64,000 nt of DNA from Paraflavitalea soli. GTDB lineage: Bacteria > Bacteroidota > Bacteroidia > Chitinophagales > Chitinophagaceae. The notes beneath the pieces were generated by a model. That model had not been told where the DNA came from. It worked only from the letters and a program-made list of their open reading frames with translations, and searched no databases. The stretch is from assembly GCF_003555545.1 (NCBI RefSeq), contig NZ_CP032157.1, positions 314,546-378,545 on the forward strand, given 5' to 3'. The position numbers and the translations under genes are program-made. Positions 2,313-20,676 of this stretch are shown here, piece after piece; position 1 is the stretch's first letter, and the number at the start of each line of letters is the position of its first letter.

Positions 2313-2396
2313 TTAAAAGCTGTTAGCGGTTAGGCATTAGCCTTTAGCAATACAGCTAACCGCTAAAGGCTAATAGCTAACAGCTAAAAGCTAATA
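2313..2396. repeat. Heptad-period inverted array after tamB
   Basis: Read on the minus strand, one base after the tamB stop codon, there are twelve consecutive 7-bp units. The first six have the form nnTTAGC (tattagc, ttttagc, tgttagc, tattagc, ctttagc, ggttagc). The later ones carry the complementary core CTAA (ctaaagg, ctaatgc, ctaaccg, ctaacag). The two halves can pair into a long imperfect hairpin between tamB and tamL. It could act as a terminator, attenuator or mRNA stabiliser, but the function is not known from the sequence. Confidence 0.85.
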
Positions 2397-2397
2397 C

Positions 2398-5300
2398 CTA
2401 ATTCGTTTTCGGCGGCACCACAGGTGGCTCTTCCTTCTTTCCTTCCCGTTCAAGTCTTTGCTTTTGCCGTTCCAGCCGCCTCGCCTCCCGCTTCTTCGCC
2501 GATTCAAATATTTCCCGGAACTTATTATAGTCGATCGTGATCACCAGGCCCACACCCGTCTCTACTATATAACCCTCCAGTATGCCTTCATATTCATTCT
2601 TGCGGTATGCCCGCACCATATACCGGCCATCACGGCTCAGTTGGTAATCCAATGATACATTGCCCGCAATATTATTGCTCTGCCGGTTCGTATTCTGCGA
2701 TCCTTCCAGTTCAAAATTGCTGCCCACGGTTACCTTCAGGCGGTCATTCAACAGTCGTTTCGATACCTCCACATTCAGGTCCGTCCGGTTCCTGAATTCA
2801 CCGGTACTATAATCCTCTTCCGACTGCACATCAAAATTGATGTCCACGCCTTCTATCAGTCCCGACGCCAGCCGGTTCAGTTGTTCCGTTAAAAGTTTGC
2901 TCACGCTCTGCCGGGCAAATCCCTCCGCCGTTAGGCTGCTATTGCCCGTAATGAAGGGATCTTCCCGGATAAACCGGTTCAGCAGCAGCAGCGCAAACAC
3001 CTGCTTGTTCATTTCTGCCGGTTGCTGCCGCAATTGCTCCAGCTTGGTATTGGAGTTTTCTACGATCGATTTGTCTATCCCGTAATTTTTATCCTCCGGC
3101 AGCTTGATGTCAAAAGCGATTTTGGGTTTCATCAGGTCGCCCGTCATGATCAGGTACACTTCAAAGGGCAGTTTTTGCCGGTACGTGTTGCGTGTGCTGG
3201 CCGGCATTTGATCCAGCTGACTTTCCACCAGGTCAATGGGTGCCGTATTGGCCACATACATGGCGGTGATGTCTACATCTGCCTTGGTAGGTTCGCCCTG
3301 CCAGATGAGGCGGCTGCCTTTTTGAATATCAAATTTGCGTTTCAGGAAATTGAAGGACAGCTCATAACTGCCTTGCTCCAGTTCATAAGTACCCGTCAGC
3401 GTTACCTTGCCGCTGGGGTCAATACCGCCGTTGAGGTTGGCTTCGCCTTTCACCCGCAGCAGATCACCATTGCCTTCATCTACGATCAGGTTCAGTTCCG
3501 CTTCTTTATCGATGGTAATATTGACCGAAATATCATAGTCCCGGATATCCGTCATGTTGAGGGAGTCAAGTCGGGCATCCACCCATAAGGTATCATTGGC
3601 CAGGGAGTCGCGGTCCACAAAACGTACGATCCCTTCCCGGTCCTGTACACCCGGGTCTTCCTGCGGCAATACCACCGTGAGTTTGGTTTTTTCATTCACC
3701 TTCAGCGATCCGTCTACTACCGGGTGCAGTTCTGTGCCTTTGATCGAAAGCCGGCTGTTCAGGTACAGCTGACCATAATACAGGTTATTGTCTTTCTTGG
3801 TACTGTTCAGCGCCTGAAAATTGCGCGCATTGAATACCAGGTCAAACTTATAATTGCTGAAGTTCGTAGTATAGGCCGTCCCATCCAGTTCCGCCGTATT
3901 GTTGGCCGAATCCCGGATCGTGAACTTGTCAAATACCACCCCTTCATTCGTGATGCTTATTTTCTCCTGGTCTATTTTCAGCGCCGTGCTCAGCGCAGCC
4001 GGCGTCAGTATCGCTTTGTTGAAATTCAGTTCCCCGTTTACCGAAGGTTTATCCATCGTGCCAGTAATGGCAAACTGTCCATTCACCGTACCTGATGCTT
4101 TCTTGATGCTGCCCATGCTCACCCCCTCCAGGGTGTTGAGTTGTAATTGCCGCACCGCTACATTAAAGTCAAAGGAACTTACATCTGCTACTTTGTATAC
4201 CCCTTTCACACCTACATCATTACCGCGTCCCGTCAGCGTAATATCCGCATCATAATTATCCGTCACTTTATTGTTCACCACCGCATGCAGGTCACCCAGC
4301 GTATCTTTATTTACACTAAGGTTATTGACCGTAAGATCACCCACAAACACAGGCGCCTTCGTAATATTGGTGAAGCTGATATTACCATTCAGTTCTCCAT
4401 CTGCCAGCAGCGAATCTTTCTGGATAAAACTAGCCAGTGTGGCGATCCTGAACCTGGAGAACTCAACCCCTAAAGGTTGTCCCTGTTGATCTTCTCTTGT
4501 CTGGATCGTCAGCCGCTGGTCCATAAAGCTCAGCCAGAAGTTACGGGCCGTAATATTGGTAGAGTCTATCCTGATCACATTGTCATTGCTAGCCAGCCAG
4601 GGCTGGTAGTTCAGCATCAGCGAATCGGGCCGCATGGAAAACTCATACACCCCTTTAGTGGGCTGCGACAACAGCCCTTCCAGGTGATACTTGTCTTTGC
4701 CATTCACATCCGTCGTGTTCAACGCAAAGTTGATCTTGTTGTCAGCCAGGTTGGCCCTTAAGGAAGCACCATATACATTTAAGGATTGCCCCACCTTAAC
4801 GCCATCGATCGTGACCACGGCCTGCAAGCGCTCTTCATTTGTATTGGCCGTCAGCGCCAGGTTACTGATCTCATTGGCGCCATAGATCACCAGCGGCGCT
4901 TTCAGCGAGGCATTCAATCCGCCATTGCTGGTAAAATGTCCTGTCAGTAGCACGGGCTCCATCTTTTTCAGGTCGGGCACAAATCCCTGTAGCAGGGGTT
5001 TATTGATCAACGTGGCATTTACCCTGAAATCATAGGGTGGGAGTGCGGTGAGTGAATCCGTCGTATTGGAAAAATACTTTTGCACCGACCGCTGTACCAC
5101 CGTACCCAGTTCGGTGAGCCGGTACTGTCCCCACAGTTGTGCCGTGAGTACTTCACTGTTCAGGCGGATCACCTTACCGGAATCAGTAATGTCAGCGACT
5201 ACCTCCACGCTATCTGTTTCGATCCGTTTTTCACCCATCACCAGCAGGTTCTTACTCACCAGCAGGCGTCCTTTCAAACTATCTATGTTCAGGATGGGGA

Positions 5301-7497
5301 AGTCTGCGTCTATATTGCCCCGGTAAAGAATAGCGTCCTCTGTCAGGTGCAATGCTTTGGTATTGATGCTGTCGATCACTGCATGCAGTTTGATGGCGGG
5401 ATAAGTACTGGCTACACTGCCCGATGCATCGAGGGAGAAATGAATGGGATCATTTTGAATGCCGGCTTGCACCGTAAATTGTTGTTGCGCCATATGGCCG
5501 TTCACTTTGAAGTCACGGTACGTATAGCCTTTGTATTCCGCTACGGCTATTTTTCCATTAACCGTAGCATCCATTGTTTTGGGTACACGGCCCTTGCCTT
5601 TGGCGCTTACCTCCATCGTCAGCAATCCCAGGTCGGGTTGTTGCAGCAACTGCTTCAGATCGAAAGAGCGGGTGGTTACCACCGCATCATACCCGATATT
5701 ATTGGAATCGGCAGGGTTCTGCACGGTACCTTTAAAAGTAGCCGTGCCCAACGTGGTATTGAGCAGCAGATCGGCGAAGAGATTTTTTTCTGTACCATTC
5801 ACCTTACCGCTCAGGTTGAATTGCGAAGGGATCGTAATAGTAGCGGGGATCGTACCGGCAGGCAATAGCATCCGCACATCTTTGGCGCTGCTGCTGATGT
5901 CTTTGATCACCAGGTTGGCCTGCAGCTGTTTCATGTCCGGCAGGCCTTTGATATAGCCAGCCATCTCCACATTCGTTTGCTGTAAGCCTTTCACACGAAA
6001 GGATGCAATACGCAAGTCCTTCACCGATCCGCTCACCCGGCTGTTGATATACCAGGTCGCATTGGGATTGGCAAAAGCGGGTTGCGCATGCAGGTCAGGT
6101 GCAAACGTAAGGATATCCTTTACCTGCACCTTGCTGTTCTGCACATCCATATCCAGTTGCAGCAGACTGATATTCTTTTGTAAAGCTTCCAGGGAAGGAT
6201 AACTTACATCCACACTTCTTTCCAGCCGGGTGCCCGGCGTTTCCACCAGCAGGTCGTGCAGGTAAGCACCTTTGGCGGTATATTGAAAACTGGTTTGCAG
6301 TTGTTGCAGCTTGAAACCCGATTGTTCGGTAAAGCTGCCTGCTTCAATTTGCCCGCTGATCGTGTCCGTGCTGTAGTGGATATCCCTGGCCCCAAACTGC
6401 AGGTCTTGCAGGTCCAGGTGCGCATAGTCCATACCGGCTTTCGCTTTGGGTGCATTGTCATCATCCATCCGGAAAGCGGTTTTCTCCAGTTGGAGTTGTC
6501 CCACCGTCACCAGCCAGCCGGCATCCGCCTGCGCCTTCACTTCCTGTTTTATTTCTTTCACCACCACTTTGGCCGCCGGCTTCTTGCCCATGCGTACCGT
6601 GGCTGTGGTATTGTTCAGATTCACCTCATCCAGCCGTACGATGCGTTTGGTCAGGTCCAGCTGCCGCATGTCTACCGTCAGTTCGCCCAGTTGGAGATTG
6701 GTATAAAAAGCGCTCACATCATTGCCATAATCGAGGGCGCAATCTTCCAGCGCTATTTGTTTAAAGGATAATTGCAGGTCTGTGCCCGCAGCGGCATCTG
6801 CACTGTCTGTGGCCGGCGATTCTTCGTTCACCAGTGGTTTACGCTGGTAAATACGGGCCCTTAAACCACTTAGCCTGGTAGCGGGCACAGAAAAGATAGA
6901 GTGGGTGGGGTCAAACACATCAATGCGCGTATCCAGGTGACCTACATATACCGCCATATCGTTGCCCGTCACCACATCATTGTAGCGGGCCTGCACTTTA
7001 TCCAGTACCACATGTTTGATCGCCATCTTCATGCTGCTCGTATCCGTAGAAGGAGCGGAGGGTTCTTTGGGGGCAAAAGCATCTACAATAAACTGGAAAT
7101 TGAACGTGGTATCCGGCAGGGTCCGCTTAATATGGGCGGTAATGCCTTCCAGGTTCACCTCATTCACCAGCAATTCACTTTTGAACAAGCGCCACAGGTT
7201 TACGTCAAACTTCATGCGGCCGCCATAGAACAGCGTATCCTTTTGCCGGTCCTCGAGGTAAATGCCTTCCAGTACGATCTTTTTGGGAAAACCGATATAC
7301 AACTTGCCTACGGCCACTTTCGTTTGGAGCTTCTTTTCCAGCCAGCTCACCGCCTTACCCCGGAGGAAGTTTTGAACAGGGGGCGTTTGTATCAGTACCA
7401 GCAACAGGATCAATACGCCCAGGATGACCAGGATCGTCTTGAGAACGATCCGCCCGATCTTTTTGAGTTTAGCAGGCACAGTGGTCGGTTGTTTCAA
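2398..7497 (-). CDS. tamB: Translocation and assembly module protein TamB (DUF490)
   Basis: This 1699-residue protein has a short basic N-terminus, one transmembrane anchor at about residues 17-39 (ILVILGVLILLLVLI), and a very long repetitive beta-rich AsmA/TamB-like body. The C-terminal DUF490 domain spans roughly residues 1250-1650 and includes VFALLLLNRFIRED and LNRLASGLIEGVDINFDV. TamB spans the periplasm and works with the Omp85 partner (tamL, downstream) in outer-membrane protein insertion or lipid transport. It is longer than the proteobacterial protein (about 1260 residues), as is usual in Bacteroidota. The start codon is TTG (7497-7495), the same rare choice as in tamL. Several long antisense frames over this gene are shadows. 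Confidence 0.93.
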   Translation of the reverse strand: MKQPTTVPAKLKKIGRIVLKTILVILGVLILLLVLIQTPPVQNFLRGKAVSWLEKKLQTKVAVGKLYIGFPKKIVLEGIYLEDRQKDTLFYGGRMKFDVNLWRLFKSELLVNEVNLEGITAHIKRTLPDTTFNFQFIVDAFAPKEPSAPSTDTSSMKMAIKHVVLDKVQARYNDVVTGNDMAVYVGHLDTRIDVFDPTHSIFSVPATRLSGLRARIYQRKPLVNEESPATDSADAAAGTDLQLSFKQIALEDCALDYGNDVSAFYTNLQLGELTVDMRQLDLTKRIVRLDEVNLNNTTATVRMGKKPAAKVVVKEIKQEVKAQADAGWLVTVGQLQLEKTAFRMDDDNAPKAKAGMDYAHLDLQDLQFGARDIHYSTDTISGQIEAGSFTEQSGFKLQQLQTSFQYTAKGAYLHDLLVETPGTRLERSVDVSYPSLEALQKNISLLQLDMDVQNSKVQVKDILTFAPDLHAQPAFANPNATWYINSRVSGSVKDLRIASFRVKGLQQTNVEMAGYIKGLPDMKQLQANLVIKDISSSAKDVRMLLPAGTIPATITIPSQFNLSGKVNGTEKNLFADLLLNTTLGTATFKGTVQNPADSNNIGYDAVVTTRSFDLKQLLQQPDLGLLTMEVSAKGKGRVPKTMDATVNGKIAVAEYKGYTYRDFKVNGHMAQQQFTVQAGIQNDPIHFSLDASGSVASTYPAIKLHAVIDSINTKALHLTEDAILYRGNIDADFPILNIDSLKGRLLVSKNLLVMGEKRIETDSVEVVADITDSGKVIRLNSEVLTAQLWGQYRLTELGTVVQRSVQKYFSNTTDSLTALPPYDFRVNATLINKPLLQGFVPDLKKMEPVLLTGHFTSNGGLNASLKAPLVIYGANEISNLALTANTNEERLQAVVTIDGVKVGQSLNVYGASLRANLADNKINFALNTTDVNGKDKYHLEGLLSQPTKGVYEFSMRPDSLMLNYQPWLASNDNVIRIDSTNITARNFWLSFMDQRLTIQTREDQQGQPLGVEFSRFRIATLASFIQKDSLLADGELNGNISFTNITKAPVFVGDLTVNNLSVNKDTLGDLHAVVNNKVTDNYDADITLTGRGNDVGVKGVYKVADVSSFDFNVAVRQLQLNTLEGVSMGSIKKASGTVNGQFAITGTMDKPSVNGELNFNKAILTPAALSTALKIDQEKISITNEGVVFDKFTIRDSANNTAELDGTAYTTNFSNYKFDLVFNARNFQALNSTKKDNNLYYGQLYLNSRLSIKGTELHPVVDGSLKVNEKTKLTVVLPQEDPGVQDREGIVRFVDRDSLANDTLWVDARLDSLNMTDIRDYDISVNITIDKEAELNLIVDEGNGDLLRVKGEANLNGGIDPSGKVTLTGTYELEQGSYELSFNFLKRKFDIQKGSRLIWQGEPTKADVDITAMYVANTAPIDLVESQLDQMPASTRNTYRQKLPFEVYLIMTGDLMKPKIAFDIKLPEDKNYGIDKSIVENSNTKLEQLRQQPAEMNKQVFALLLLNRFIREDPFITGNSSLTAEGFARQSVSKLLTEQLNRLASGLIEGVDINFDVQSEEDYSTGEFRNRTDLNVEVSKRLLNDRLKVTVGSNFELEGSQNTNRQSNNIAGNVSLDYQLSRDGRYMVRAYRKNEYEGILEGYIVETGVGLVITIDYNKFREIFESAKKREARRLERQKQRLEREGKKEEPPVVPPKTN

Positions 7498-7846
7498 AAT
7501 AAATCTTGCATTTATTTGTAATACTATCAGTTATGCGAAAAGGCTCCTTTGTATAATTCAAAAAGCAAGCCTTTTTTACCTGGCCGTATTTGTATGATGG
7601 AAACTAAGAAACGGGGAGATCGCTCTACAAATTAACGAAATCTGTCGTTTGACGAGGGAAGAAAATAGAATGTAGAATACAGAATCCAGCATACAGAAGC
7701 GGGCGACCAGGGTCTGAAGTCAGGTCTTAGTCTGCGGTCAGAAGCCGGAATTGGAAGTAAGGAGCCCGTAGGCTAGCAAGCAGCAACCAGCATGCTGCCA
7801 TTCTGTATTCTTCTGTATTCTGTATTCTGAATTCTGTATTCTGTTC
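7498..7846. other. Intergenic region between cinA and tamB
   Basis: About 350 bases without a gene. The part nearest tamB (7498-7640) is AT-rich and should hold the tamB promoter, but I see no clear TTG-N19-TANNTTTG match. The rest is mainly the inverted heptad arms plus a G-rich middle (7701-7795) in which I see no coding frame. Confidence 0.6.
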
Positions 7847-7848
7847 TC
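7668..7848. repeat. Heptad-period inverted arrays between cinA and tamB
   Basis: The left arm at 7668-7702 reads gaatgta, gaataca, gaatcca, gcataca, gaagcgg, an exact 7-bp period. The right arm at 7804-7848 reads tgtattc, a 3-bp slip, then tgtattc, tgtattc, tgaattc, tgtattc, tgttctc. Unit gaataca is the exact reverse complement of tgtattc, so the arms can pair across about 100 bases. The right arm overlaps the cinA stop codon (7847-7849). The arms therefore lie in the 3' tail of cinA and upstream of tamB. Function unknown. Confidence 0.8.
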
Positions 7849-8332
7849 AACTCCTTTCCAAACACCCTTCCAGTATCCTCAGCACCTGCTCCGCATAATC
7901 TACCTGCACAGCAGGGGCGGCGCCGGCGCTGGAATTGATCTTTTCGAGGGTAAGTACCTCTCCTTTATAGGTGGCGGCTACATAAGCAAAGATGTCATGA
8001 ATGCCTTTTTCAGGCAAGGGAGCTGCATAGCCGGTGATGGCAATGCCATAATCACTCATGAATAATTTTTGAACGCCGATGCTCATTTGCAGGGCTACTT
8101 TAGCTGATACGCAATTGCTGAATTCGGCTTCGATGGGATCGATGTGGAGATGTTTGCATTTCTGCCCCAGGTTGTAAGTAGTGATGCCGCCCTGGAAAAA
8201 GAAAGAAGCTTCTTCTGCAGAAGAGAGGATGGCTTGTACATAACCGGCTGTTACACTCTCTGCTACGGCAATCGTTTCGTGCCGGGCAGCCAGCAAAGCG
8301 CGGATGGTATTGGCTTTGTTTTCAAATAGCAT
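7847..8332 (-). CDS. CinA C-terminal family protein (PncC-like NMN amidohydrolase)
   Basis: 161 residues, the size of the free-standing CinA C-terminal domain. Conserved blocks are visible: AVAESVTAGYVQAIL near residue 22 (family AESxTGG), FFFQGGITTYN near 45-55, and GIAITGYAAPLPEKG near 95-110 (family ITGxAGP). The family deamidates nicotinamide mononucleotide to nicotinate mononucleotide in pyridine nucleotide recycling. Here some glycines of the AESCTGG and GIAGP motifs are replaced (TAGY, YAAP), so activity is less certain than family membership. ATG start at 8332. The gene reads toward tamB, and its stop codon lies inside a heptad array. Confidence 0.8.
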   Translation of the reverse strand: MLFENKANTIRALLAARHETIAVAESVTAGYVQAILSSAEEASFFFQGGITTYNLGQKCKHLHIDPIEAEFSNCVSAKVALQMSIGVQKLFMSDYGIAITGYAAPLPEKGIHDIFAYVAATYKGEVLTLEKINSSAGAAPAVQVDYAEQVLRILEGCLERS

Positions 8333-8540
8333 GGCAGTGGTTAATCAAAGTGACAGGTCAAAATATGAAAAGCTCGTTGCTCCTAACGGCTGTCAGGCCC
8401 TTGTAGCTTCGTTATCTTGGTTGCCCTGGAAGAAAGAAAAGCGGAGGAGTAACTGTATTACTTACCGACTTCCAGACTTCTCCGGCTTTCGCGCTTTTCC
8501 CGTAAAGGTTAATGATCAATGAACGATGGTATAAAGAGTA

Positions 8541-8720
8541 TCAGGTTTTCTTCCGTTGTTGCTTATTGTGGTGGGGCTTTTTGTTGTGGGTAACATCATT
8601 CCCTTTGAAATCCTGCTCCTCATTTTTCCGGCTGTCAAGGTTGTCCCTGATCTCCGGTTTCGGGATCGTATGGTGCCCCTGTTTACTTTGCTTTGTAGTT
8701 TGACTGCGTGTGGTTTTCAT
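8541..8720 (-). CDS. Small hydrophilic conserved hypothetical protein
   Basis: 59 residues from ATG at 8720; a TTG five codons upstream is a less likely start. The protein is highly charged, with no membrane segment, and has a central patch IPKPEIRDNLDSRKNEEQ followed by KGNDVTHNKK and a basic tail. The patch resembles a family of short unannotated Bacteroidota proteins that I recall, but no function is known to me. Like its downstream neighbours it is on the minus strand. Confidence is moderate because the protein is short and low in complexity. Confidence 0.5.
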   Translation of the reverse strand: MKTTRSQTTKQSKQGHHTIPKPEIRDNLDSRKNEEQDFKGNDVTHNKKPHHNKQQRKKT

Positions 8721-8770
8721 ATGTGCGGTTTTCAACGATCAGTAAAAAGATAATGCCAGTCTTGCCGCTG

Positions 8771-8840
8771 TACTCCCGTCTCCAAACGCTTAACGCTCAC
8801 CTCTAAGCTCCCGACTCATAACTCCCAACGCTGCTCTCAA
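8771..8840. repeat. Heptad-period direct array overlapping a response-regulator stop codon
   Basis: Ten 7-bp units run without a slip: tactccc, gtctcca, aacgctt, aacgctc, acctcta, agctccc, gactcat, aactccc, aacgctg, ctctcaa. The consensus is aaCTCcc. The last unit covers the stop codon (8837-8839) of the response regulator read on the minus strand. No complementary arm is visible nearby, but an array with a similar word lies at 9294-9363 on the other side of the same gene, in the same orientation. Confidence 0.8.
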
Positions 8841-9268
8841 CTCTGTACTTCCTCCTCCTGTATCCCCTTCCCTTCCTTGCCGATCTTGTGGAACCACCAG
8901 GCTATCTGCTGGCATTCTGTAAAAGTGGCCGGCTTCGTAATATAGGCAGCGGCGCCAATTTCCTTGCAACGCGTGCGTTCAAGGTCATTAATGGAAGTGG
9001 AATAAATAATAACAGGTATATCCTGGTACAGCGGATGTTGCTTCAGGTAGGACAGCGTTTCCCGGCCATTCATCCGGGGCATGTTCAGGTCCATCACGAT
9101 GAGCGAGGGCAATTCATGGGGTGGCAGCTGGTTCAGCAATTCAATGGCCGATTCCCCGTTGTCCGCAAACCGCAGGGTATCTCCAATACCATTATCGCTG
9201 AATGCTTCCTGCATCAGAAATTGGTCTTCCGAATCATCATCCACCAGCAATATTGTTTTCTCTACCAT
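8837..9268 (-). CDS. Single-domain response regulator (CheY-like)
   Basis: 143 residues, a receiver domain only. The acidic pocket is D10-D12 (LLVDDDSED), the phospho-acceptor is D60 in VMDLNMPRMNG, the switch Ser/Thr is in IIYSTS (about 90), and the conserved lysine is K112 in YITKP. There is no output domain, so it probably acts by protein contact or phosphotransfer. It is divergent from the giant HAMP kinase at 9651, with a 382-base spacer holding a palindrome. That kinase is a plausible partner, but this is inferred from position only. Confidence 0.92.
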   Translation of the reverse strand: MVEKTILLVDDDSEDQFLMQEAFSDNGIGDTLRFADNGESAIELLNQLPPHELPSLIVMDLNMPRMNGRETLSYLKQHPLYQDIPVIIYSTSINDLERTRCKEIGAAAYITKPATFTECQQIAWWFHKIGKEGKGIQEEEVQS

Positions 9269-9293
9269 ACGTACAGTTTAGATCCGCCTTCCC

Positions 9294-9363
9294 GCCTCAA
9301 GACTTCCAACTCTCGGCTCAGGACTCCCAACTCCGGACTCAAGACGCTCCACTCGCGACTCCG
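9294..9363. repeat. Heptad-period direct array upstream of the response regulator
   Basis: Ten units of exactly 7 bp: gcctcaa, gacttcc, aactctc, ggctcag, gactccc, aactccg, gactcaa, gacgctc, cactcgc, gactccg, with consensus gaCTCnn. It lies 26 bp upstream of the minus-strand response regulator start. Its word is close to that of the array at 8771-8840, so the gene is bracketed by related arrays in the same orientation. Confidence 0.8.
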
Positions 9364-9513
9364 ACTTCCTACTTTATCACAACTCACATGCCCGTTTTTA
9401 TGGCCCGTCTCCGGAAACCAATGGCATAGCCTTTTATATACACATTATGCCTGGGCCTTAAAAACGGATAGCTGAAAACAGCCATGTATGTTTTTGCCCA
9501 AATTGTGTAATTT

Positions 9514-9530
9514 TTCCCCAATTTGGGGAA
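9514..9530. promoter_or_regulatory. Perfect dyad TTCCCCAA-T-TTGGGGAA, candidate operator
   Basis: Two 8-bp arms are perfectly complementary around a single central base, in the spacer between the divergent response regulator (start 9268) and the HAMP kinase (start 9651). The length and symmetry suit a dimeric regulator site. A short hairpin role is also possible. No other copy was noticed in the window. Confidence 0.5.
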
Positions 9531-9650
9531 CTCTGTTTAATGAAATATGCGTAACATACGCTGCAAACCAATACAGGCACCAACCCTTCATTTCCCGGAA
9601 ATGTGGCATGATTTCTTATTTGATATAGCTTCTTATATTAAACATTTACT

Positions 9651-12600
9651 ATGACCCGCCCAAAAACTAAGGCCATTCGCCCATCGGATGGAGATCGTGC
9701 TGCCACCGCCAAAGCCAATGGATTACCCAAAAAAAGGTCGTCTTCTGCAAACAAAAATGCCCGGCCGCCTCAGGTCGGGTATGATGATCCCCATTTGCAG
9801 CAGGCATCAGGTCAGCTCGATCTGCGTGAACTACTGCATGTACTCACCGAAATGAAGAACGGGAATTTCAATGTGCGCATGCCCATTGATGAGGTAGGGC
9901 TCAACGGAAAGATTTGCGATACCCTCAACGATATCATCTCTCTCAATGAGAAAATGATGCAGGAGTTTACCCGCGCCGGTAATACCATCGGTAAGCAGGG
10001 TAAGCTCACCCAACGTATAGAAGTACCCCATGCCAAAGGCGCCTGGAGTACCGGCGTAGACTCACTCAATACACTTATCTCCGACCTGGTGCACCCCACC
10101 ATTGAGATTGCCCATGTGATCAGCCTCGTGGCCAAGGGCAACCTCTCCCAGGAAATGCCCCTCGAGATCGGCGGTCACCTCCTGCAGGGCGAATTTGCCC
10201 GCATCGCCAAAGAGGTAAACGACATGGTGAAGCAGCTCAACCTCTTCTCCATCGAAGTTACCCGCGTGGCGCGGGAAGTAGGGTCAGAAGGTAAACTGGG
10301 CGGTCAGGCCAAGGTAAAAGGCGTAGGTGGTGTGTGGAAAGACCTCACCGATTCGGTAAACCAAATGGCCAGTAACCTCACCGGTCAGGTGCGCAACATC
10401 GCCGAGGTAACCACCGCAGTGGCAAAAGGCGACCTTTCCAAAAAGATCACTGTGGATGTAAAAGGAGAGATCCTGGAGCTCAAGAATACCATCAATACCA
10501 TGGTGGATCAGCTCAACTCCTTCTCTTCCGAAGTTACCCGGGTGGCCCTCGAAGTAGGTACCGAAGGTAAACTGGGCGGCCAGGCCCAGGTAAAAGGCGT
10601 AGCCGGTACCTGGAAAGACTTAACAGACTCCGTAAACCAGATGGCCTCCAACCTTACCGGCCAGGTGCGCAACATTGCTGAGGTGACCACTGCCGTGGCC
10701 AAGGGCGACTTATCGCGTCAGATCACGGTGGATGTAAAAGGAGAGATCCTCGAATTGAAGAATACCATCAACACCATGGTGGACCAGCTCAACTCCTTCT
10801 CTGCCGAAGTAACGCGCGTGGCGCGGGAAGTAGGTTCCGAAGGAAAGCTAGGCGGTCAGGCCAAGGTAAAAGGCGTAGGTGGTGTATGGAAAGACCTCAC
10901 CGATTCCGTAAACCAGATGGCCTCCAACCTCACCGGCCAGGTGCGTAACATTGCCGAAGTAACGACCGCCGTGGCGCGGGGCGACCTGGGCCGTAAGATC
11001 ACCGTGGATGTGAAAGGAGAGATCCTGGAATTGAAGAATACCATCAACACCATGGTGGACCAGCTCAACTCCTTCTCTTCCGAAGTGACCCGGGTGGCCC
11101 TCGAAGTAGGTACCGAAGGTAAGCTCGGCGGCCAGGCCCAGGTAAAAGGCGTGGCCGGTACCTGGAAGGACTTGACGGACTCGGTAAACGGGATGGCCTC
11201 TAACCTTACCGGTCAGGTGCGCAACATCGCGGAAGTGACTACCGCCGTGGCCAAGGGCGACTTATCGCGTAAGATCACCGTGGACGTAAAAGGAGAGATC
11301 CTCGAATTGAAGAATACCATCAACACCATGGTGGACCAGCTCAACTCATTTGGTTCCGAAGTAACCCGCGTGGCGCGGGAAGTAGGATCGGAAGGTAAGC
11401 TGGGCGGCCAGGCGGCAGTACCCGGCGTAGGCGGTACCTGGAAAGACCTGACCGACTCGGTAAACATCATGGCCGGTAACCTCACCTCCCAGGTGCGCAA
11501 CATTGCGGAAGTAACCACCGCCGTGGCTACCGGTGACCTTTCCCGTAAGATCGATGTGGACGTTAAAGGAGAGATCCTCGAATTGAAGAATACCATCAAT
11601 ACCATGGTGGACCAGCTTCGCGGCTTCGCTTCCGAAGTAACCCGGGTGGCGCGTGAAGTAGGATCGGAAGGTAAACTGGGTGGTCAGGCCACCGTAGAAG
11701 GAGTAGGGGGTGTATGGAAAGACCTGACAGACTCCGTAAACGGAATGGCCTCTAACCTTACCGGTCAGGTGCGGAATATTGCCGAAGTAACCACTGCCGT
11801 AGCGAAAGGTGACCTTAGCCGTAAGATCACGGTGGACGTAAAAGGAGAGATCCTCGAATTGAAGAATACCATCAATACCATGGTGGACCAGCTCAACTCA
11901 TTCGGGTCTGAAGTAACGCGCGTGGCGCGGGAAGTAGGTTCCGAAGGTAAGCTGGGCGGTCAGGCCGATGTACCCGGCGTAGGCGGTACCTGGAAAGATT
12001 TAACCGACTCTGTAAATAAAATGGCCTCCAACCTTACCTCCCAGGTGCGCAACATTGCCGAGGTAACCACCGCCGTGGCCAATGGCGACTTGTCGCGTAA
12101 GATCGGCGTGGATGTAAAAGGCGAGATCCTGGAGTTGAAGAATACCATCAACACCATGGTGGACCAGCTGCGGGGCTTCGCGTCAGAAGTAACGCGCGTG
12201 GCGCGTGAGGTGGGTACCGAAGGTAAACTGGGTGGCCAGGCCAATGTACCCGGTGTGGCAGGTACCTGGAAGGATCTGACCGACTCCGTAAACCAGATGG
12301 CGGGCAACCTCACCGCCCAGGTGCGCAACATCGCCGAGGTGGCCATCGCCGTGGCGAACGGGGATATGTCGAAAAAGATCACCGTGGACGTACGCGGGGA
12401 GATCCTTCAATTGAAAGAAACCCTCAATACCATGGTGGACCAGCTGCGCGCCTTCGCCTCCGAAGTAACGCGGGTGGCGCGTGAGGTAGGTACTGATGGT
12501 AAGCTGGGTGGACAGGCCTTCGTGCCAGGCGTAGCCGGTACCTGGAAGGACCTGACCGACTCCGTAAACCAGATGACCGGTAACCTCACCGCCCAGGTGC

Positions 12601-15600
12601 GCAACATCGCTGAAGTAACAAAAGCGGTGGCTTCCGGTGACCTGAGTAAAACCGTACAGATCGACGTAAAGGGTGAGATCCTCGACCTCAAGAATACCAT
12701 CAATACCATGGTGGAGCAGTTGAACTCCTTCGCCTTTGAGGTTACCCGCGTGGCGCGTGAGGTAGGTACGGAAGGTAAACTGGGCGGCCAGGCCGAAGTA
12801 CGCGGCGTGGCCGGTACCTGGAAAGACCTTACCGATAATGTGAACATGATGGCCTCCAACCTCACCAACCAGGTGCGCGGTATTGCCAAGGTAGTAACGG
12901 CCGTGGCTACCGGTAACCTCAAACAGAAACTATCCATTGTATCCCGTGGTGAAGTTGCACAGCTGACGGATACCTTCAATGAGATGATCGATACCCTGGC
13001 CGTATTTGCCGACCAGGTAACCACCGTGGCCCGTGAGGTGGGGGTGGAAGGACGATTGGGGGGACAGGCCAGTGTACCGGGCGCTTCCGGTATCTGGAAA
13101 AACCTCACGGAAAACGTAAACCAGCTGGCGCAGAACCTTACTACCCAGGTGCGTTCTATCTCCGAAGTAGCCAGCGCGGTAACAAAAGGTGACCTTACCC
13201 GTACCATCCGCGTAGAAGCCAAAGGAGAAGTGGAAGCCTTGAAGGATACCATCAACCAAATGATCAACAACCTCAAGGAAACTACCTTGCGCAACCAGGA
13301 GCAGGACTGGCTCAAATCCAACCTGGCCAAGTTTGGCCAGATGCTGCAGGGACAAAAAGACCTGAAGACAGTAACCCAGCGTATCCTCTCCGAGCTGGCG
13401 CAGGTGGTAACCGCCCACTACGGCGCCTTCTATATCCTTACACAGGAGGAAGATACCCAGCATGCCATGCTCAACCTGTTTGCCGCCTATGGTTATAAGA
13501 CCGATAAGAACATTCCCACCGAGTTTGCCATTGGTGAAGGCCTGGTAGGCCAGGTGGCCTTTGAAAAAGAAAGGATCATCCTCTCCAATGTACCGGGCAA
13601 TTATATCAAGATCAGCTCCGGGCTGGGGCGCGCCAAACCGGCCAACCTCATCATCCTGCCCGTATTGTTTGAGAACAAAGTGAAAGCCGTTATTGAACTG
13701 GCCTCGCTCGATGTCTTCAGCGAAACGCACCTCGACTTCCTCAGCCAGCTTACCGAAAGTATCGGTATCGTGTTGAACACCATCGAGGCCAATACCCGCA
13801 CAGCCGAGCTGCTTACCCAGTCACAATCACTGGCCGGTGAGTTGAAAATACAACAGGAAGAGTTGAGAAGGACCAACGATGAATTACAGGACAAAGCCCT
13901 GCTGCTCGTAAAACAGAAGAACGAAGTGGAAGCCAAGAACAAGGAAGTGGAAGAGGCCCGCCGTTCACTCGAAGAAAAAGCAGAACAGCTTACCCTCACC
14001 TCCAAGTACAAGTCCGAGTTCCTGGCCAATATGTCGCACGAGCTGCGTACGCCGCTGAATAGTTTGCTCATCCTTGCCCAGCAATTGTATGAGAATGCAG
14101 AAGGCAACCTTTCCGATAAGCAAATACGGTATGCCCGCACCATTCACTCCTGTGGTGATGACCTCATACAACTGATCAATGATATCCTCGATCTGTCGAA
14201 GATCGAATCCGGTTTCATTACCGCCAATATGGGCTCTGTACGGTTTTCCGAGATCGCCGGTTTTGTGGAAACTACTTTCAAACCCATTTCAGAAGCCAGG
14301 CACCTGCGGTTTACCATCGAGACAGATACCAACCTGCCCGATGCCATGGAGACCGACTTGCAGCGCTTGAACCAGATCTTAAAGAACCTCTTGTCCAACT
14401 CCTTCAAGTTTACCGAAAAAGGCGAAGTAAAACTGCGCATCTACGAAGCGAAGAAGAACTGGAAACAAGGTACCCCCAGTCTCGACCATGCTGCCCGTGT
14501 GGTGGCCTTTGCCATTACCGATACCGGTATCGGCATCCCCCAGGAAAAGCAGAACATCATCTTCGAAGCCTTCCAGCAGGCCGAAGGGTCTACCAGCCGT
14601 AAATACGGCGGTACCGGTTTGGGATTGTCTATCAGCCGCGGTTTGGCCGAACTGTTAGGCGGCACCATCGAGCTGGAAAGCCAGCCTTCTTTCGGCAGTA
14701 CCTTCACCCTCTTCCTGCCCGTAGATGCCGTAGCCGGTATGATCCCCAAAGAGGATGGCCTCTCTGCCTATCGCCAGTATCAGCTGGGAGGCGATAGCGG
14801 CGAGATTGATACCCTCATCAATTCCATCCGGGCTACTTCCGAAAGCAAGGAAGCCCAGGGTATGCACAGCATGGTGAATGAAATGATCAATGAAACAGGC
14901 GACGACCGCAACCTTATCCAGCCCAACGACAAGGTCATATTGATCGTGGAAGATGACCTGCGTTTTGGCAAGATCATCATCGACAAAGCCCATGAGCTGG
15001 GCCTCAAAGCCATCGTGGCCACCAATTATATTGAGGTATTTGATTTCATCAACCGCTTTCTGCCTATTGCCATTACACTCGATGTGAAGTTGCCCGATAC
15101 CAGTGGCTGGAAGGTGCTCGACCTCCTGCGCAATGACCTCAACTACCGTCATATTCCCATCCACCTCATTTCCGGCGAAGAGAACAAAGAGCTGGCCCTC
15201 AAGCGGGGCGCCCGCAGCTTCCTGCTGAAGCCCCTGGACAATGATGTACTGAATGAGTTGTTTGAAGATATCATGACCTTCAACAGCAAAGAAGTGAAGA
15301 AAGTGCTGGTGGTGGAAGACAATGAGATCGATTCCTCACAGATCGTAAAAATACTCATTGCCGATAACATGGATGTCACCCTGGCCGATACGGGCAGGGA
15401 AGCCATAGCCCAGATCGAGGATAAAGGAAATGATTTTGATTGTATCATCCTGGACTATACATTGCCCGATATTTCAGGTACGGACATTGTGAACAAAGTG
15501 GCGGAAAATAAACAGAAGCATACCCCTGTGATCATCTACTCCGGAAAAGATTTTGGTAAGAAAGAATTGCAGCACTTGCACCGCACCTCCAATACCATCA

Positions 15601-16106
15601 TCCTCAAAGGCGTTAATTCACTGGAGCACCTGCTCGAAGAGACCGTGTTGCACCTCCACATCAATCACAAAGACCTGCCGCAGGACAAGAAAAGGGTTAT
15701 TGAGAACATACGGATGAAAGAAGATATCCTCACCGGTAAGAATATATTGGTGGTGGATGATGATGTAAGAAACCTGTTTGCCCTCACCACCGTATTTGAA
15801 AGGTACAATATCAATGTGATCACCGCCGAGAGTGGAAAGGATGCCATCAACATTATTCGCGATGAAAGCCCGAAGATCGACATGGTGCTGATGGACATCA
15901 TGATGCCTGAAATGGATGGCTATGAGACCACCCAGAAGATCAGGCGCGAGCACAAGAACAGTACCTTGCCCATCATTGCCGTGACTGCCAAGGCCATGAA
16001 GGGTGACCGGCAGAAATGTATCGAAGCAGGCGCTTCCGATTATATCACCAAGCCGCTAAAGATCGATCAGTTATTATCTTTGATGCGCGTGTGGTTTTAT
16101 AAATAA
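9651..16106 (+). CDS. Giant soluble hybrid histidine kinase: HAMP array, GAF, HisKA, HATPase, three REC
   Basis: 2151 residues with no transmembrane segment, so cytosolic. Order: basic N-terminus (1-45); HAMP-like segments to about 200; eleven 92-residue HAMP units (residues 202-1213) of the type [19 protein letters not shown]...WKDLTDSVN...[19 protein letters not shown] domain (about 1235-1375); coiled coil (about 1385-1450); HisKA with H1463 in [12 protein letters not shown]; HATPase with DTGIGIP and [10 protein letters not shown]; then REC domains with D1811, D1935 and D2082. The last REC keeps [12 protein letters not shown] and ITKP; the middle one has LKG in place of KP. The plan matches the group III (Nik1/Os-1 type) soluble osmosensing kinases known in fungi and many bacteria, but the HAMP array is unusually long. 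It has no output domain, so signalling must pass to separate regulators or by phosphorelay. Confidence 0.95.
10254..13289 (+). repeat. Eleven in-frame 276-bp tandem units encoding HAMP pairs
   Basis: The period is exactly 276 bp with no indel: unit 1 starts at 10254 (E202) and unit 11 at 13014. Units 1-9 are very similar, while 10 and 11 are diverged. Unit 1 resembles unit 3 and unit 2 resembles unit 4 (R/L alternation in VAREVGSEG versus [17 protein letters not shown] versus AQVKGVAG). Units 4-5 likewise resemble 6-7 (NSFGS then RGFAS). This points to expansion in two-unit, 552-bp steps. Confidence 0.9.
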
Positions 16107-16282
16107 GCTGTGAGCTGTGAGCCAATACAAGCCGTGAGCTATGAGCTGCGAGCGAAATACATTTGAAGAATTTTCGACGCAAGCGCTTGAAGCAAAAGGC
16201 TCGTAGCTCGTAGCGCGCAGCTGTTCCGTAGCTGACTGTTCAACGCTCGTAGCTCGTAGCTCGTAGCTCGCCGCTCGCAGCT
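16107..16282. repeat. Heptad-period inverted arrays after the HAMP kinase
   Basis: The left arm starts at the base after the kinase stop codon: gctgtga, gctgtga, gccaata, caagccg, tgagcta, tgagctg, cgagcga (16107-16155). The right arm at 16199-16282 is twelve perfect 7-bp steps: gctcgta, gctcgta, gcgcgca, gctgttc, cgtagct, gactgtt, caacgct, cgtagct three times, cgccgct, cgcagct. Left gagct/gcgagcg motifs are complementary to right agctc/cgctcgc, so a long stem can form. It lies between the two kinases, which are co-directional. Confidence 0.85.
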
Positions 16283-16354
16283 TGAAAAGCGAACACGATT
16301 AGAACAACGATCCTTATCCCTTGTCCTAACATTATTAAATAGAAATTCAAACTA

Positions 16355-17626
16355 ATGCAGCAAAAGATCTTATTGGTAGACGACCGGGAAGATAATTTGC
16401 TTTCCATGGAAGCCATCCTGGAGCCAGACGGCTACCAGTTCATAAAAGCTACGTCCGGCCGTCATGCCCTGAAGATCCTGTTAACAGAGTTCGACTTTGC
16501 CCTGATCCTCATGGATGTGAAGATGCCCAACCTCAGCGGCTTCGAGACCGCGGCCCTCATCTATGAAAGGGAGAAGCTGCGCCATATCCCCATTATATTC
16601 ATTACCGCCAATAACTATGGCGAAGACAATATTTTCAAAGGCTACCGTACCGGGGCCGTGGATTATATCTACAAGCCCATCAATCCCGAATTGCTGCGGG
16701 CCAAGGTATCTGTATTCATCGACCTCTACCAGAAGAACAGGCGACTCCTTATGCAGGAGCAAAAGCTAAAGGCCATCAACAAAAACCTGGAAGACGAGAT
16801 CAGCGAGCGCAAAGCTTCCGAAGAAAAGATCAAACAACTCAACCGGCAGTTGCTGGGCAATATTACCTTGCTGGAATCCGCCAACCGCGACCTGGACCGT
16901 TTCGCCTTCATGGCTTCCCACGACCTGCAGGAACCCCTGCGCAAGATCCGCACCTTCAGCGATCTGCTGGCTACTAAGTACAAGGATAGCCTGGACAAAG
17001 ATGCCAATGCATATATCGACCGCATACAGAGTGCGGCGGCGCGTATGCAGGCCCTGATCAAAGACATCCTGGCTTTTTCCAAGCTCACTGGCGAGAAAGA
17101 CAATTTTGAATTTACCGACCTCAATATCCTGCTCGATGAGGCCCTGGCCGATCTGGAGACACCCATTAAGGAAAAAGGAGCGCACATCAGTTTGTTGGAG
17201 CCTTTGCCGGCATTGGAAGTAAACCCCGGGCTCATCAGGCCTTTGTTTTACAATATCATCAGCAATGCCATCAAGTACAGCAAGACAGATGTCACACCAC
17301 AGATCACCATCCGCTATGAATTGACAACCGGGCAGGAAAAAATTGCCGGTAATAATAAGGAGAATGCAGGGAAGTACTGCCGTATTTTTATGGAAGACAA
17401 TGGCATCGGCTTCGACCAGGTATATGCCGAGCAGGTATTTGAAATGTTCCGGCGTTTACATGTGAGCAGTGCCTTTGAAGGCACCGGTATTGGGCTGGCC
17501 CTTTGCAAGAAGATCGTGGAAAAGCACCATGGCTTTATCTCCGCCCACAGTAAGGCCAACGAAGGCACTACCTTTATCGTCACCTTACCCGTCTACCAAC
17601 CCGTAAAGGTCATGATGAAGCAATAA
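16355..17626 (+). CDS. Response regulator-histidine kinase (REC-HisKA-HATPase)
   Basis: 423 residues. An N-terminal receiver carries acidic D9-D10 (LLVDDREDN), phospho-acceptor D54 (ILMDVKMPNLSG) and K107 (YIYKP). A coiled coil spans about 120-180. The HisKA box has H189 in FMASHDLQEPLRKI. The HATPase has MEDNGIGFD and GTGIGLALCKK. There are no membrane segments. A kinase led by a receiver usually takes a phosphoryl signal from another kinase, and the giant hybrid kinase just upstream is the obvious candidate (inference). Its stop codon is 1 base from the convergent Nudix stop. Confidence 0.93.
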   Translation: MQQKILLVDDREDNLLSMEAILEPDGYQFIKATSGRHALKILLTEFDFALILMDVKMPNLSGFETAALIYEREKLRHIPIIFITANNYGEDNIFKGYRTGAVDYIYKPINPELLRAKVSVFIDLYQKNRRLLMQEQKLKAINKNLEDEISERKASEEKIKQLNRQLLGNITLLESANRDLDRFAFMASHDLQEPLRKIRTFSDLLATKYKDSLDKDANAYIDRIQSAAARMQALIKDILAFSKLTGEKDNFEFTDLNILLDEALADLETPIKEKGAHISLLEPLPALEVNPGLIRPLFYNIISNAIKYSKTDVTPQITIRYELTTGQEKIAGNNKENAGKYCRIFMEDNGIGFDQVYAEQVFEMFRRLHVSSAFEGTGIGLALCKKIVEKHHGFISAHSKANEGTTFIVTLPVYQPVKVMMKQ

Positions 17627-17627
17627 C

Positions 17628-18089
17628 TCATTTCCCGGCTGCCTTCACCAGGTCAGCCACCACCTTATCAATCGGCAGTGTAACCACTTCCCCGGAGAAA
17701 TCTTCCCAGTCAATAAACCGGAACGTCTCCGTTTCACCCGTTTGCCGGTACACTTCCATTTGCTGTTCATCAAAGTCAAACAACTTCGTGCGCAGGGGGG
17801 CCTTGATCGGTTCCAGCGCATGCGCATAATAATAGATCGCAATGATCTGCTGGTCGGGCGTAAAAGCGCTCATCTGAAAGAAATCCGTCGTATAGATATG
17901 ATCCCCGATCCGCACCTCCAGGTCCAGCTCTTCCTTGAATTCCCTTTTCAGGCAATCCCGCGTGCCTTCGCCAAATTCCAGTCCGCCGCCGGGAAACTTC
18001 GTATAATAACCGCCACGGATAAATTCATCCGCCACCAATACCTGGTTGTTGTCGCCAAGCAGGATGCCGTATACTCTTACGTTAAACAT
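17628..18089 (-). CDS. Nudix hydrolase
   Basis: 153 residues. The Nudix box is clear: GGLEFGEGTRDCLKREFKEE at about residues 35-54, fitting Gx5Ex7REUxEE, with the final glycine of the consensus replaced by aspartate (EELDL). The family hydrolyses nucleoside diphosphates linked to another moiety. The substrate cannot be told from the sequence. The start codon lies 3 bases after the corA stop codon, so the two genes are probably co-transcribed. Confidence 0.88.
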   Translation of the reverse strand: MFNVRVYGILLGDNNQVLVADEFIRGGYYTKFPGGGLEFGEGTRDCLKREFKEELDLEVRIGDHIYTTDFFQMSAFTPDQQIIAIYYYAHALEPIKAPLRTKLFDFDEQQMEVYRQTGETETFRFIDWEDFSGEVVTLPIDKVVADLVKAAGK

Positions 18090-18092
18090 ACA

Positions 18093-19031
18093 TTAGAATA
18101 TTTTCTTCTTGAGGAAAAACCACCCGATCACGAGCGAGATCACGAGCGAAAGAAATACCGGGATATAAAATGCGTAAGGGGAGTCTTTATAAGGGATGGG
18201 CACGTTCATGCCATAGATACTGGCTACCAGTACCGGGAAGGTCAATACGATCGTGATCACCGCCAGGCGGCGCAACACTTCGTTCTGGTTATTGGCAATG
18301 ATGCTGGCAAAGGCATCCAGCGTACTACTCAGGATGTTGGTGTAGATATTGGCCATTTCAAGCGCCTGTGAGTTGTCTACGATAAGATCCTGCAGGAACT
18401 CCTTCTCTTCTTCATTCAGTGCCAGGAAGTTCGTGCGTTCGATCTTCATCAGCAGCATTTCGTTGGAGCGGAGCGCTGTTACGAAATACACCAGGCTCTT
18501 TTGTATGCGCATCAGCTGCAGCAGCTCTTCATTCCGGTTGGCGGCATACAGCTTTTGTTCTACGATATTGCGGCGGTGGTTGATCTCCTTCAGCGAATCC
18601 ATATACGTCTGAATGATCTTTTCGAAGATCTTCAGCGCCATCATCTTCCGGTTGTCCGGGTGACGGTTCTGGAAAGTGTGCAGGAATTTCTTGATCGCTT
18701 CGTTGTCGAAGCTGTTCACCGTTAATATCTGGTTGTGCGTAAGGATGATAACGATCGGGATCGTGATGTAGAGCGCATCACTTTCGTTGAACGAGTTGTT
18801 TTCCGTGGGTGCTTTGATGACCACCAACTTCACGTTGTCGTCTTCTTCAAAACGGCTTCTTTCATCGATATCCAGTGAGTCCGTCAAAAAGTCGAGCGGA
18901 ATATCCAGCCCGTCCGCCAGTTCTGTAAATTCTTCCTGCTTCAGCGGGGGCAATACATTTACCCAGCTGCCATTTTCCGGTTTGTCGATGGCGACCGTCT
19001 GGTGATTGATATTTTTGAAGTACTGGATCAT
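18093..19031 (-). CDS. CorA-like magnesium/divalent metal transporter
   Basis: 312 residues with the CorA layout: a large soluble N-terminal domain, a long helix (about 150-245), then two C-terminal membrane segments. The family signature is present as YGMNVPIP (the GMN motif) at the end of TM1 near residue 275, and the second TM (VFLSLVISLVIGWFF) is followed by a lysine-rich tail KKKIF. It forms pentameric inner-membrane channels for Mg2+ or related ions. ATG start at 19031. It is first of a pair with the Nudix gene. Confidence 0.92.
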   Translation of the reverse strand: MIQYFKNINHQTVAIDKPENGSWVNVLPPLKQEEFTELADGLDIPLDFLTDSLDIDERSRFEEDDNVKLVVIKAPTENNSFNESDALYITIPIVIILTHNQILTVNSFDNEAIKKFLHTFQNRHPDNRKMMALKIFEKIIQTYMDSLKEINHRRNIVEQKLYAANRNEELLQLMRIQKSLVYFVTALRSNEMLLMKIERTNFLALNEEEKEFLQDLIVDNSQALEMANIYTNILSSTLDAFASIIANNQNEVLRRLAVITIVLTFPVLVASIYGMNVPIPYKDSPYAFYIPVFLSLVISLVIGWFFLKKKIF

Positions 19032-19056
19032 TTTGCCGGCGCAAAGGTAGGGGAAA

Positions 19057-19214
19057 ACATGTTACGTGTTTTGGGTTTTGAGTTTCGTGTTGCCATCGCA
19101 TGTAAGCGTTCAGGATCAGGCTAATACAACGTACGCTGCCCCACAGGGAGAACCCGAAACCCGGCACCTCAAACCCGAAACTCTAAACCCGGTACCCGAA
19201 ACTCCAAATCCGAA
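19057..19214. repeat. Heptad-period inverted arrays between dinB-like gene and corA
   Basis: Right arm 19152-19214 is nine perfect 7-bp units: acccgaa, acccggc, acctcaa, acccgaa, actctaa, acccggt, acccgaa, actccaa, atccgaa. Left arm 19057-19091 is five units, acatgtt, acgtgtt, ttgggtt, ttgagtt, tcgtgtt, which on the minus strand read aacacga, aactcaa, aacccaa, aacacgt, aacatgt. The arms are therefore inverted. The right arm begins 4 bases after the stop codon of the minus-strand DinB-like gene. Confidence 0.85.
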
Positions 19215-19218
19215 ATTA

Positions 19219-20546: not shown

Positions 20547-20582
20547 GTGGTAGATTCTTCTCCTGTTTTTGCTTTATGTCGA

Positions 20583-20632
20583 AGGGTGGGTCGCCCTCCG
20601 GTCCCGCCAATTGGCGGGATCACCCTGATCTA
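20583..20632. repeat. Interspersed hairpin element, copy A
   Basis: AGGGTGGGTCGCCCT ... CACCCTGATCTA, shared with copies at 40413 and 56196. In this copy the inner stem is replaced by TCCCGCCAATTGGCGGGA (20602-20619), a perfect 18-bp palindrome. It lies between the nucleoside phosphorylase stop and the dapF start. Confidence 0.8.
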
Positions 20633-20676
20633 AAAGAGCCTGTCGAAGCCCAAAATTAATAACAAACCGACAACAA

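Follow-up and report, generated by a model that had tools for sequence, protein, structure and literature searches.

Heptamer words repeated in cyanobacterial genomes go by the name of short tandemly repeated repetitive (STRR) sequences. Arrays of the heptamer GGGNATC, with a preference for four units, were described near stop codons in Xanthomonas and Nostoc, and X. campestris carries 70 inverted pairs of them (Rehm et al. 2015; PMC4692102). In Beggiatoaceae, arrays of TAACTGA lie mostly before start codons (MacGregor 2015; PMC4679880). Here we examine arrays of heptamers in the spacers of Paraflavitalea soli (Bacteroidota), starting from a 64,000-nucleotide stretch (G000:C1:314546-378545, hereafter the window) of its genome, which consists of one contig of 8.44 Mb, and we connect them with the genes for the 23S rRNA intervening-sequence protein (IVP, or S23). 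An earlier note, made from the letters of the window, had named at least six spacers with such arrays and had presented locus-specific words in inverted pairs on gene tails as apparently undescribed. They were in part known already: heptamers near stop codons and in inverted pairs had been reported from Xanthomonas (PMC4692102). The sections of these reports on which we draw present the Xanthomonas, Nostoc, and Beggiatoaceae heptamers as simple repeats, G-quadruplexes, or regulator sites and state no link to IVP (PMC4692102, PMC4679880). IVP as the protein partner of heptad arrays is new; among the matches listed in open-licence PMC text, judged by titles and the starts of abstracts, we found no paper that linked IVP to heptamers.

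The REP-associated tyrosine transposases (RAYTs), which go with repetitive extragenic palindromic (REP) sequences, are mostly single-copy genes kept by vertical descent. Like the elements described here, REPIN-RAYT systems combine a protein gene with its own class of repeat and with extragenic, nonautonomous, inverted-pair copies able to form hairpins (PMC3116915). The IVP elements differ in that their arms are tandem 7- or 8-bp words and not a palindromic REP and in that their copies begin at stop codons. Further, the gene between the arms encodes IVP and no Y1 tyrosine transposase, and because of this protein we do not count the heptad elements as members of REPIN-RAYT. Dispersed inverted pairs with the repeat of a resident gene were present in P. 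soli but not in its sister species G004, where 2 of 12 arrays fit. With the intervening sequences (IVSs) of 23S rRNA, the elements share the IVP/S23 protein, whose family has no known function, and an open reading frame (ORF) inside complementary borders that fold into a stem (PMC4990558). However, IVSs are situated within rRNA helices, whereas the heptad elements stand behind protein-coding genes, as all four IVP elements of P. soli do, and have many gene-less relatives. A more distant likeness is to Avd, the partner of the reverse transcriptase in diversity-generating retroelements (DGRs), which is likewise a four-helix bundle and whose profiles match IVP proteins of P. soli below the cutoff (PF22296, 6e-5 and 4e-4 in two of the four proteins; NF033474, 0.003 and 3e-4). 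Next to those IVP genes that we viewed, we noticed no reverse transcriptase and neither a template nor a variable repeat, although no systematic scan of neighbors was made.

That IVP genes and heptad arrays belong to one system is, in our judgment, close to certain. We further think it probable that the arrays serve as arms in small REPIN-like hairpins, dispersed in the genome, for which IVP is the cognate protein. The connection was made through a small ORF inside one inverted pair (L175), which matched PF05635, the family of 23S rRNA intervening-sequence proteins with a four-helix bundle. The P. soli genome encodes four IVP proteins, which match PF05635 with 103 to 126 bits (cutoff, 33.8), and both of those scanned with TIGR02436 passed it. 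Each of the four genes has inverted heptad arrays on its two sides and follows a co-oriented protein-coding gene, and the word differs from element to element (CAGAATA, AGCTACG, GATGTAGG, and CGGCAAT). None of the four lies in the window, which is why the protein partner was invisible to the earlier note.

We then considered the flanks of 120 IVP ORFs, the fetched part of ∼370 matches, with some genomes counted in two listings. Arrays of period 7 or 8 were found on both sides of 66 ORFs and on at least one side of 100; among 250 size-matched control genes from five genomes, the corresponding numbers were 2 and 36 (P = 7e-37 for both sides). The two arms had the same period in all 66 pairs (58 with period 7 and 8 with period 8). 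When each left arm was scored against the reverse complement of the right arm in its pair, the mean was 44.1, against 13.1 for permuted pairs (maximum of 2,000 permutations, 17.5). The own right arm was the best partner in 42 of the 66 pairs and among the best three in 63, so that the arms form complementary borders of the kind known from IVSs. They also agreed unit by unit in register (10.43; maximum of 100 nulls, 9.81), and G outnumbered C in 54 of the 66 left arms. A co-oriented ORF of at least 80 codons ended near the left arm in 65 of 66 elements, and in 59 of them the arm started between −23 and +21 bp from the stop codon of a co-oriented ORF, compared with 14.4% of positions drawn at random from these flanks. 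On the IVP tree, the elements with period 8 gave no support for a single origin (5 changes; shuffled mean, 7.7; 0 of 500 shuffles as low; few columns).

Many arrays have no IVP gene between them. From the P. soli genome we took 60 pieces of 20 kb in addition to the window, 1.264 Mb in all, and applied a simple gene caller and a segment scorer. The scan of intergenic DNA for 7-bp periodicity, which the earlier note had proposed, gave 79 segments at lag 7 in 154.5 kb, against a mean of 0.3 in 10 shuffles (maximum, 1), and coding DNA contained 9, so that these are mainly intergenic head-to-tail 7-nucleotide units, as in STRRs and long simple sequence repeats (LSSRs). Lags 8 and 11 gave 18 segments each and lags 4, 5, 6, 9, 10, 12, and 13 gave 0 to 4, while signals at multiples such as 14 and 21 are a consequence of the 7-bp step. 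We conclude that the arrays are a real feature of intergenic DNA with a specific period, and on the basis of the shuffle tests we reject chance or base composition as their source.

For the analysis of position, a slightly lower threshold was used, which gave 96 arrays in 78 of 728 spacers. Thirty-six of these began 0 to 5 bp from a stop codon, where random placement in the same spacers would put 6.3, and only 8 lay 6 to 40 bp away, where 28 were expected. There was no clear excess at start codons (8 of the 96 arrays; 5.8 expected). We also examined 596 gene 3′ ends with 40 bp or more of space behind them, at which 35 arrays were situated. An inverted partner was found within 260 bp for 35 of the 96 arrays, compared with 1.6% for random spacers. 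The attachment to gene 3′ ends and the frequent inverted pairing that had been noticed in the window thus apply across the genome sample.

In the window itself, we tested the best lag-7 segment of each spacer against 2,000 shuffles that preserved dinucleotides. Scores of 22.8 (spacer 2257-2397), 24.7 (7498-7846), 14.7 (9269-9650), 25.5 (16107-16354), and 19.1 (19032-19218) were reached by none of the shuffles, and the score of 12.1 in the sixth spacer (8721-8836) was reached by one, so that all six spacers named earlier are beyond chance. Among lags 4 to 12, the others scored at most 6.1 in these spacers, with the sole exception of lag 10 in 7498-7846 (11.0); lag 7 dominates, and the period is retained within the array family, as had been claimed. 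Complementary arms had been proposed for four sites. Folding of the RNA against 200 shuffles revealed a strong hairpin at three of them (z = −6.3 for 2313-2397, −5.35 for 7668-7846, and −4.7 for the 16104 site). The fourth, at 19057, had no such support (z = −0.57), and its arms agree by word alone.

The idea that each locus has a word of its own did not survive the comparison with the rest of the genome, in which the vocabulary is shared. TTAGC, CAGAATA, CGGCAAT, AGCTACG, GATGTAGG, GGGTTTC, and TTATTAA recur at many loci. BLAST searches gave at least 64 matches in the same genome for the TGTATTC spacer (40 of 149 candidates scored) and at least 19 for the GCTCGTA spacer (19 of 185), the query itself included in both. 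A G-tract in each of four units, as in G-quadruplex heptamers, is not a general property of the words (by inspection, words such as TTATTAA, AAGTTTT, and TTAGCTA have none). Outside the IVP arms, 54 of 95 arrays matched the arms of the four resident IVP elements, and the number fell to 6, 4, and 4 in controls altered by reversal, recoding, and column permutation; among 33 genomes, P. soli itself was the best word match. In the window, CAGAATA at 7800..7844 is the word of the IVP element at G000:8271250, and AGCTGTG/AGCTGCG at 16107..16150 is that of the element at G000:6906383.

Similarity between IVP proteins went along with similarity between their arms (rho = 0.216; maximum of 1,000 within-genome permutations, 0.131). 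Of 36 IVP pairs with a similarity above 0.6, 23 were at homologous places and 13 were elsewhere, and the latter had arm scores of 26 to 80 (mean, 49), compared with a mean of 23.3 for dissimilar pairs. At one homologous site (L251 versus L233 and L254), the gene was kept and the word was changed on both arms. The ratio of nonsynonymous to synonymous substitutions (dN/dS) of IVP was 0.02 to 0.12 in six of the eight close pairs tried, those that allowed its computation; dS frequently exceeded 1.

IVP genes are widespread, with PF05635 present in 90 of 118 Bacteroidota genomes, and they vary in number within the genus: 4 in P. soli (G000), 6 in G002, 2 in G004, and 0 in both G001 and G003. Arrays were sampled in G000, G001, G003, and G004, where those over the threshold numbered 79 in 1.264 Mb, 0 in 320 kb, 0 in 200 kb, and 10 in 320 kb, respectively. 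Two further genomes free of IVP had 0 and 1 array per 80 kb (the 1 in G022), and two that are rich in IVP had 4 and 1. In the orthologous spacers compared, sister species either lacked an array or carried one with a different word at the corresponding position after the stop codon. Behind the gene at 9651-16106, for instance, P. soli has an AGCTGTG/GCTCGTA pair, G001 and G003 have a short spacer free of arrays, and G004 has an AGTGGC/GCCACT pair. The spacer with 16199..16286 is 170 to 190 bp longer in P. soli than in three sister species, and against G003 the site at 16107-16290 aligns as an insertion directly behind the stop codon. In the spacer upstream of corA, inspection by eye gave different words at the stop codon in 4 of 10 relatives viewed (L061, L067, L077, and L080). 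Elements that contain the gene can also be present in one species and absent in another. At the site of the IVP gene L249, only ten bases separate the TAA of the upstream gene from the next ATG in G003, and P. soli holds the whole element between these two genes; G001 has a different upstream gene there and is thus uninformative. At the L251 site, the stop codon in G001 and G003 is followed by a short spacer that contains no IVP gene.

These comparisons bear on the explanation that fares best next to ours, which we nevertheless consider improbable: IVP would be a posttranscriptional regulator or RNA chaperone, and the arrays would be its binding sites in mRNA tails, retained because they determine how stable the host mRNAs are or how they are processed (RNase III is one example) and born by slippage and recombination with no copying element. 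The place of the arrays directly after stop codons, where they are presumably transcribed, suits such a role, as do the strong RNA hairpins at three of the six window sites, the low dN/dS of IVP, and the cutting of 23S rRNA IVS hairpins by RNase III (PMC4990558). Against it, the orthologous sites compared differ among sister species in the presence and word of the array, a whole IVP element may be present or absent at conserved gene pairs, and so large a regulon missing from G001 and G003 would be a surprise.

It is less probable still that some other mobile system, such as a REP-associated Y1 transposase, a reverse transcriptase, or an insertion sequence, makes the elements and that IVP is their cargo. 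REPIN-RAYT is alike in outline (PMC3116915), and the distant, sub-cutoff relationship of IVP to Avd would weakly point to a reverse transcriptase. We followed the families Y1_Tnp and RVT_1 through the genus, where Y1_Tnp counts were 2, 2, 3, 2, and 3 and RVT_1 counts were 2, 3, 1, 1, and 1 in G000 to G004, respectively. Both were rejected as array-tracking genes; neither follows the arrays, whereas IVP does. Cargo, moreover, would not be expected to set the word of the arms. Least of all do we believe that replication slippage produced the arrays as ordinary heptanucleotide repeats, or that they were kept as G-quadruplexes, and that IVP genes merely land in them: a preference for four units has been linked to G-quadruplexes (Rehm et al. 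2015; PMC4692102), but TTATTAA and AAGTTTT lack G-tracts, the anchoring at stop codons is left unexplained, slippage alone does not give reverse-complement arms that share their period on either side of genes from a single family (66 of 66 pairs), and the sampled genomes without IVP had 1 array in 680 kb. The earlier note had left the choice between slippage and a dedicated copying mechanism; something beyond plain slippage seems to be involved, and slippage alone is not favored.

IVP genes with flanking arrays also occur outside the Bacteroidota. A tblastn search of plasmids with one P. soli IVP gave 41 records, mostly from Cyanobacteria. All 12 loci fetched from these cyanobacterial plasmid records had an array on at least one side of the IVP gene, and 7 had arrays on both sides, with words that include AGTAGGG, TAAAAGC, GGTGACA, and GGGTGTA. 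The 12.2 kb around the IVP genes (ORF plus 330 bp per side) contained 25 arrays, compared with 10 in the remaining 27.3 kb. The flanks were clearly complementary in ∼6 of the 12 loci (scores of 44 to 64; mismatched pairs: mean, 21; max, 54), which makes the inverted arrangement less regular in these plasmids. The link to IVP may also lie behind the long-known 7-base repeats of Cyanobacteria. Three of the cyanobacterial plasmid IVP genes (L360, L365, and L368) are situated in operons of clustered regularly interspaced short palindromic repeats (CRISPR), two flanked by cas6 and cas4 and one by cmr2 and cmr3; a figure legend in a CRISPR-mining paper names the 23S rRNA IVP domain (PMC10910872).

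The reading that we favor, dispersed hairpins with IVP as their protein, would work as follows. A full element would consist of the stop codon of a host gene, about five tandem heptads (in some cases octads), a co-directional IVP gene, and the reverse-complement array. The IVP gene would be the rather stable master, and the gene-less arrays, such as those in the window, would be nonautonomous relatives that share its word. The ring formed by IVP would bind the arms, with the strand wrapped around it and about one heptad per subunit. This is suggested by the arms of about five units and by the homologue from X. campestris, which is described as a toroidal homopentamer (PMC4990558, citing Lin 2006) and matches a P. 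soli IVP with an E value of 2.5e-20 (2gsc). Binding would allow new copies to arise behind stop codons via RNA or single-stranded DNA with borrowed or host enzymes. Dispersal of the arrays probably depends on IVP; the assignment of one heptad to each subunit of the ring is more tentative, a possibility to which we would give somewhat less than even chances.

Several observations weigh against this reading. No catalytic site is known in IVP, and no transposition intermediate was seen. Twenty of the 120 IVP ORFs had no array on either side, and at least 4 of the 12 cyanobacterial loci had flanks that were not complementary (16 to 24). The median arm length of ∼5 units (middle half, 4.4 to 6.4) was shaped by the threshold of the detector, which disfavors arms shorter than ∼3.5 units. 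With 23 of the 36 closest IVP pairs at homologous sites, the link between word and protein is in part plain inheritance. Of the 12 arrays in G004, only 2 match the words of its two resident IVP genes, so an array may persist after its IVP has gone or may go with a different IVP. TTAGC, GGGTTTC, and TTATTAA have no resident IVP in P. soli; a relaxed profile search of this genome for a copy that would go with TTAGC returned the known four and one match with an E value of 1.27. Genomes free of IVP are not fully free of arrays: G022 had 1 in 80 kb, another (locus L123) had 2, and G001 had array-like stretches at a lower threshold in 2 of 6 compared spacers, which speaks against a complete absence in G001. 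At the L251 site, G001 and G003 retain a ATTCGAAACCCG stretch, which may be a scar, a target, or the mark of a lost element and not an empty site. Finally, we compared 50 genomes by one 20-kb piece each (50 of 80 loci from a search for corA relatives; some of the genomes are shared with the relatives used for IVP counts). At least one lag-7 array was present in 21 of 40 genomes with IVP and in 1 of 10 without (P = 0.029), a test that, like the counts within the genus and in the further genomes, ignores kinship, and the correlation between IVP count and array count, again ignoring kinship, was weak (rho = 0.24, P = 0.094).

The arrays of the window are listed in Table 1.

Table 1. Heptad arrays in the window (positions within the window; left and right arms are named in the sense of the gene whose stop codon they follow)
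Feature	Word	Position	Strand	Context or basis
Left arm of heptad hairpin	TTAGCNN	2352..2396	−	1 bp from stop of TamB-like gene 2398-7497 (TamB by Pfam)
Right arm of the hairpin with 2352..2396	reverse complement of its word	2318..2348	−	period scan and fold
Left arm	CAGAATA	7800..7844	−	2 bp from stop of CinA-like gene 7847-8332
Right arm of the hairpin with 7800..7844	TGTATTC on minus strand	7674..7698	−	period scan and fold
Degenerate heptad array	GAGTCGG-like	8773..8831	−	5 bp from stop of response-regulator gene 8837-9268
Heptad array in divergent spacer	as in 8773..8831	9283..9374	−	5′ side of 8837-9268
Left arm	AGCTGTG/AGCTGCG	16107..16150	+	abuts stop of HAMP-repeat histidine kinase gene 9651-16106; period scan lists 16106-16122 (period 7), further units and extent by eye
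Two right-arm stretches	GCTCGTA	16199..16286 (16199-16221, 16245-16286)	+	period scan, sister comparison, and fold
Left arm	GGGTTTC (AACCCGA on +)	19151..19216	−	2 bp from stop of DinB-like gene 19219-19764
Right arm	GTGTTTT/GAGTTTC on +	19057..19093	−	adjoins corA start region; pairs with 19151..19216

The array at 9283..9374 is the one that had been set apart from those at gene 3′ ends, and it does lie between divergent genes. No inverted partner was seen for the array at 8773..8831, which together with 9283..9374 flanks the response-regulator gene with two arrays of one word in direct orientation; at the matching places, G004 has two different words by eye, one of them with period 8. At the arms more generally, AATACA stood just inside the left arm in 8 of 39 cases, compared with a background of 2%, and TTTGCTTCGA-like words often come just after left arms (L014, L177, and others). 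An AGCTACG-type array was also seen by eye in the 3′ coding part of the gene upstream of an IVP element (L250, ∼2151-2190).

Other repeats share the window with the arrays. Arrays of period 11 are located at 31448-31511 and 33515-33612; with 18 segments of this period in P. soli, 7 in G004, and 3 in G001, which has no IVP, period 11 looks like a separate system. A dispersed repeat that contains AAGGGTGGGTCGCC lies at 20580-20650 and occurs in 16 of the 728 sampled spacers. The histidine kinase gene, which encodes 2,151 amino acids, contains 9.6 copies of a 276-bp tandem repeat at 10223-12878 and has 11 HAMP matches. Known RNA families were considered for the arrays and rejected: at the gathering threshold, Rfam matched only a DUF805 RNA (35511-35575, minus strand) and a tRNA in the window, both away from the arrays.

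In its widest form, which we regard as speculative and would not ourselves expect to hold in full, the proposal is that IVP rings recognize heptad or octad words in tandem, with each subunit taking one unit, in a code that differs between IVP clades and thereby drive selfish hairpins that have no enzyme of their own and seek out stop codons, in at least the Bacteroidota and Cyanobacteria. STRRs, the G-rich heptamers of Xanthomonas, and the IVSs of rRNA would then be one system, and the period of 7 nucleotides would be set by the protein and not by the polymerase. The finding suggests that a protein may dictate the period of short tandem repeats, that the place just after a stop codon may be a safe site for insertion, and that there may be a class of dispersed elements lacking a transposase gene, and a system of heptads and IVP would also explain the presence of IVP genes inside cas operons. 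The heptamer repeats of bacteria have so far been without a settled cause, and joining them to IVP makes both testable.

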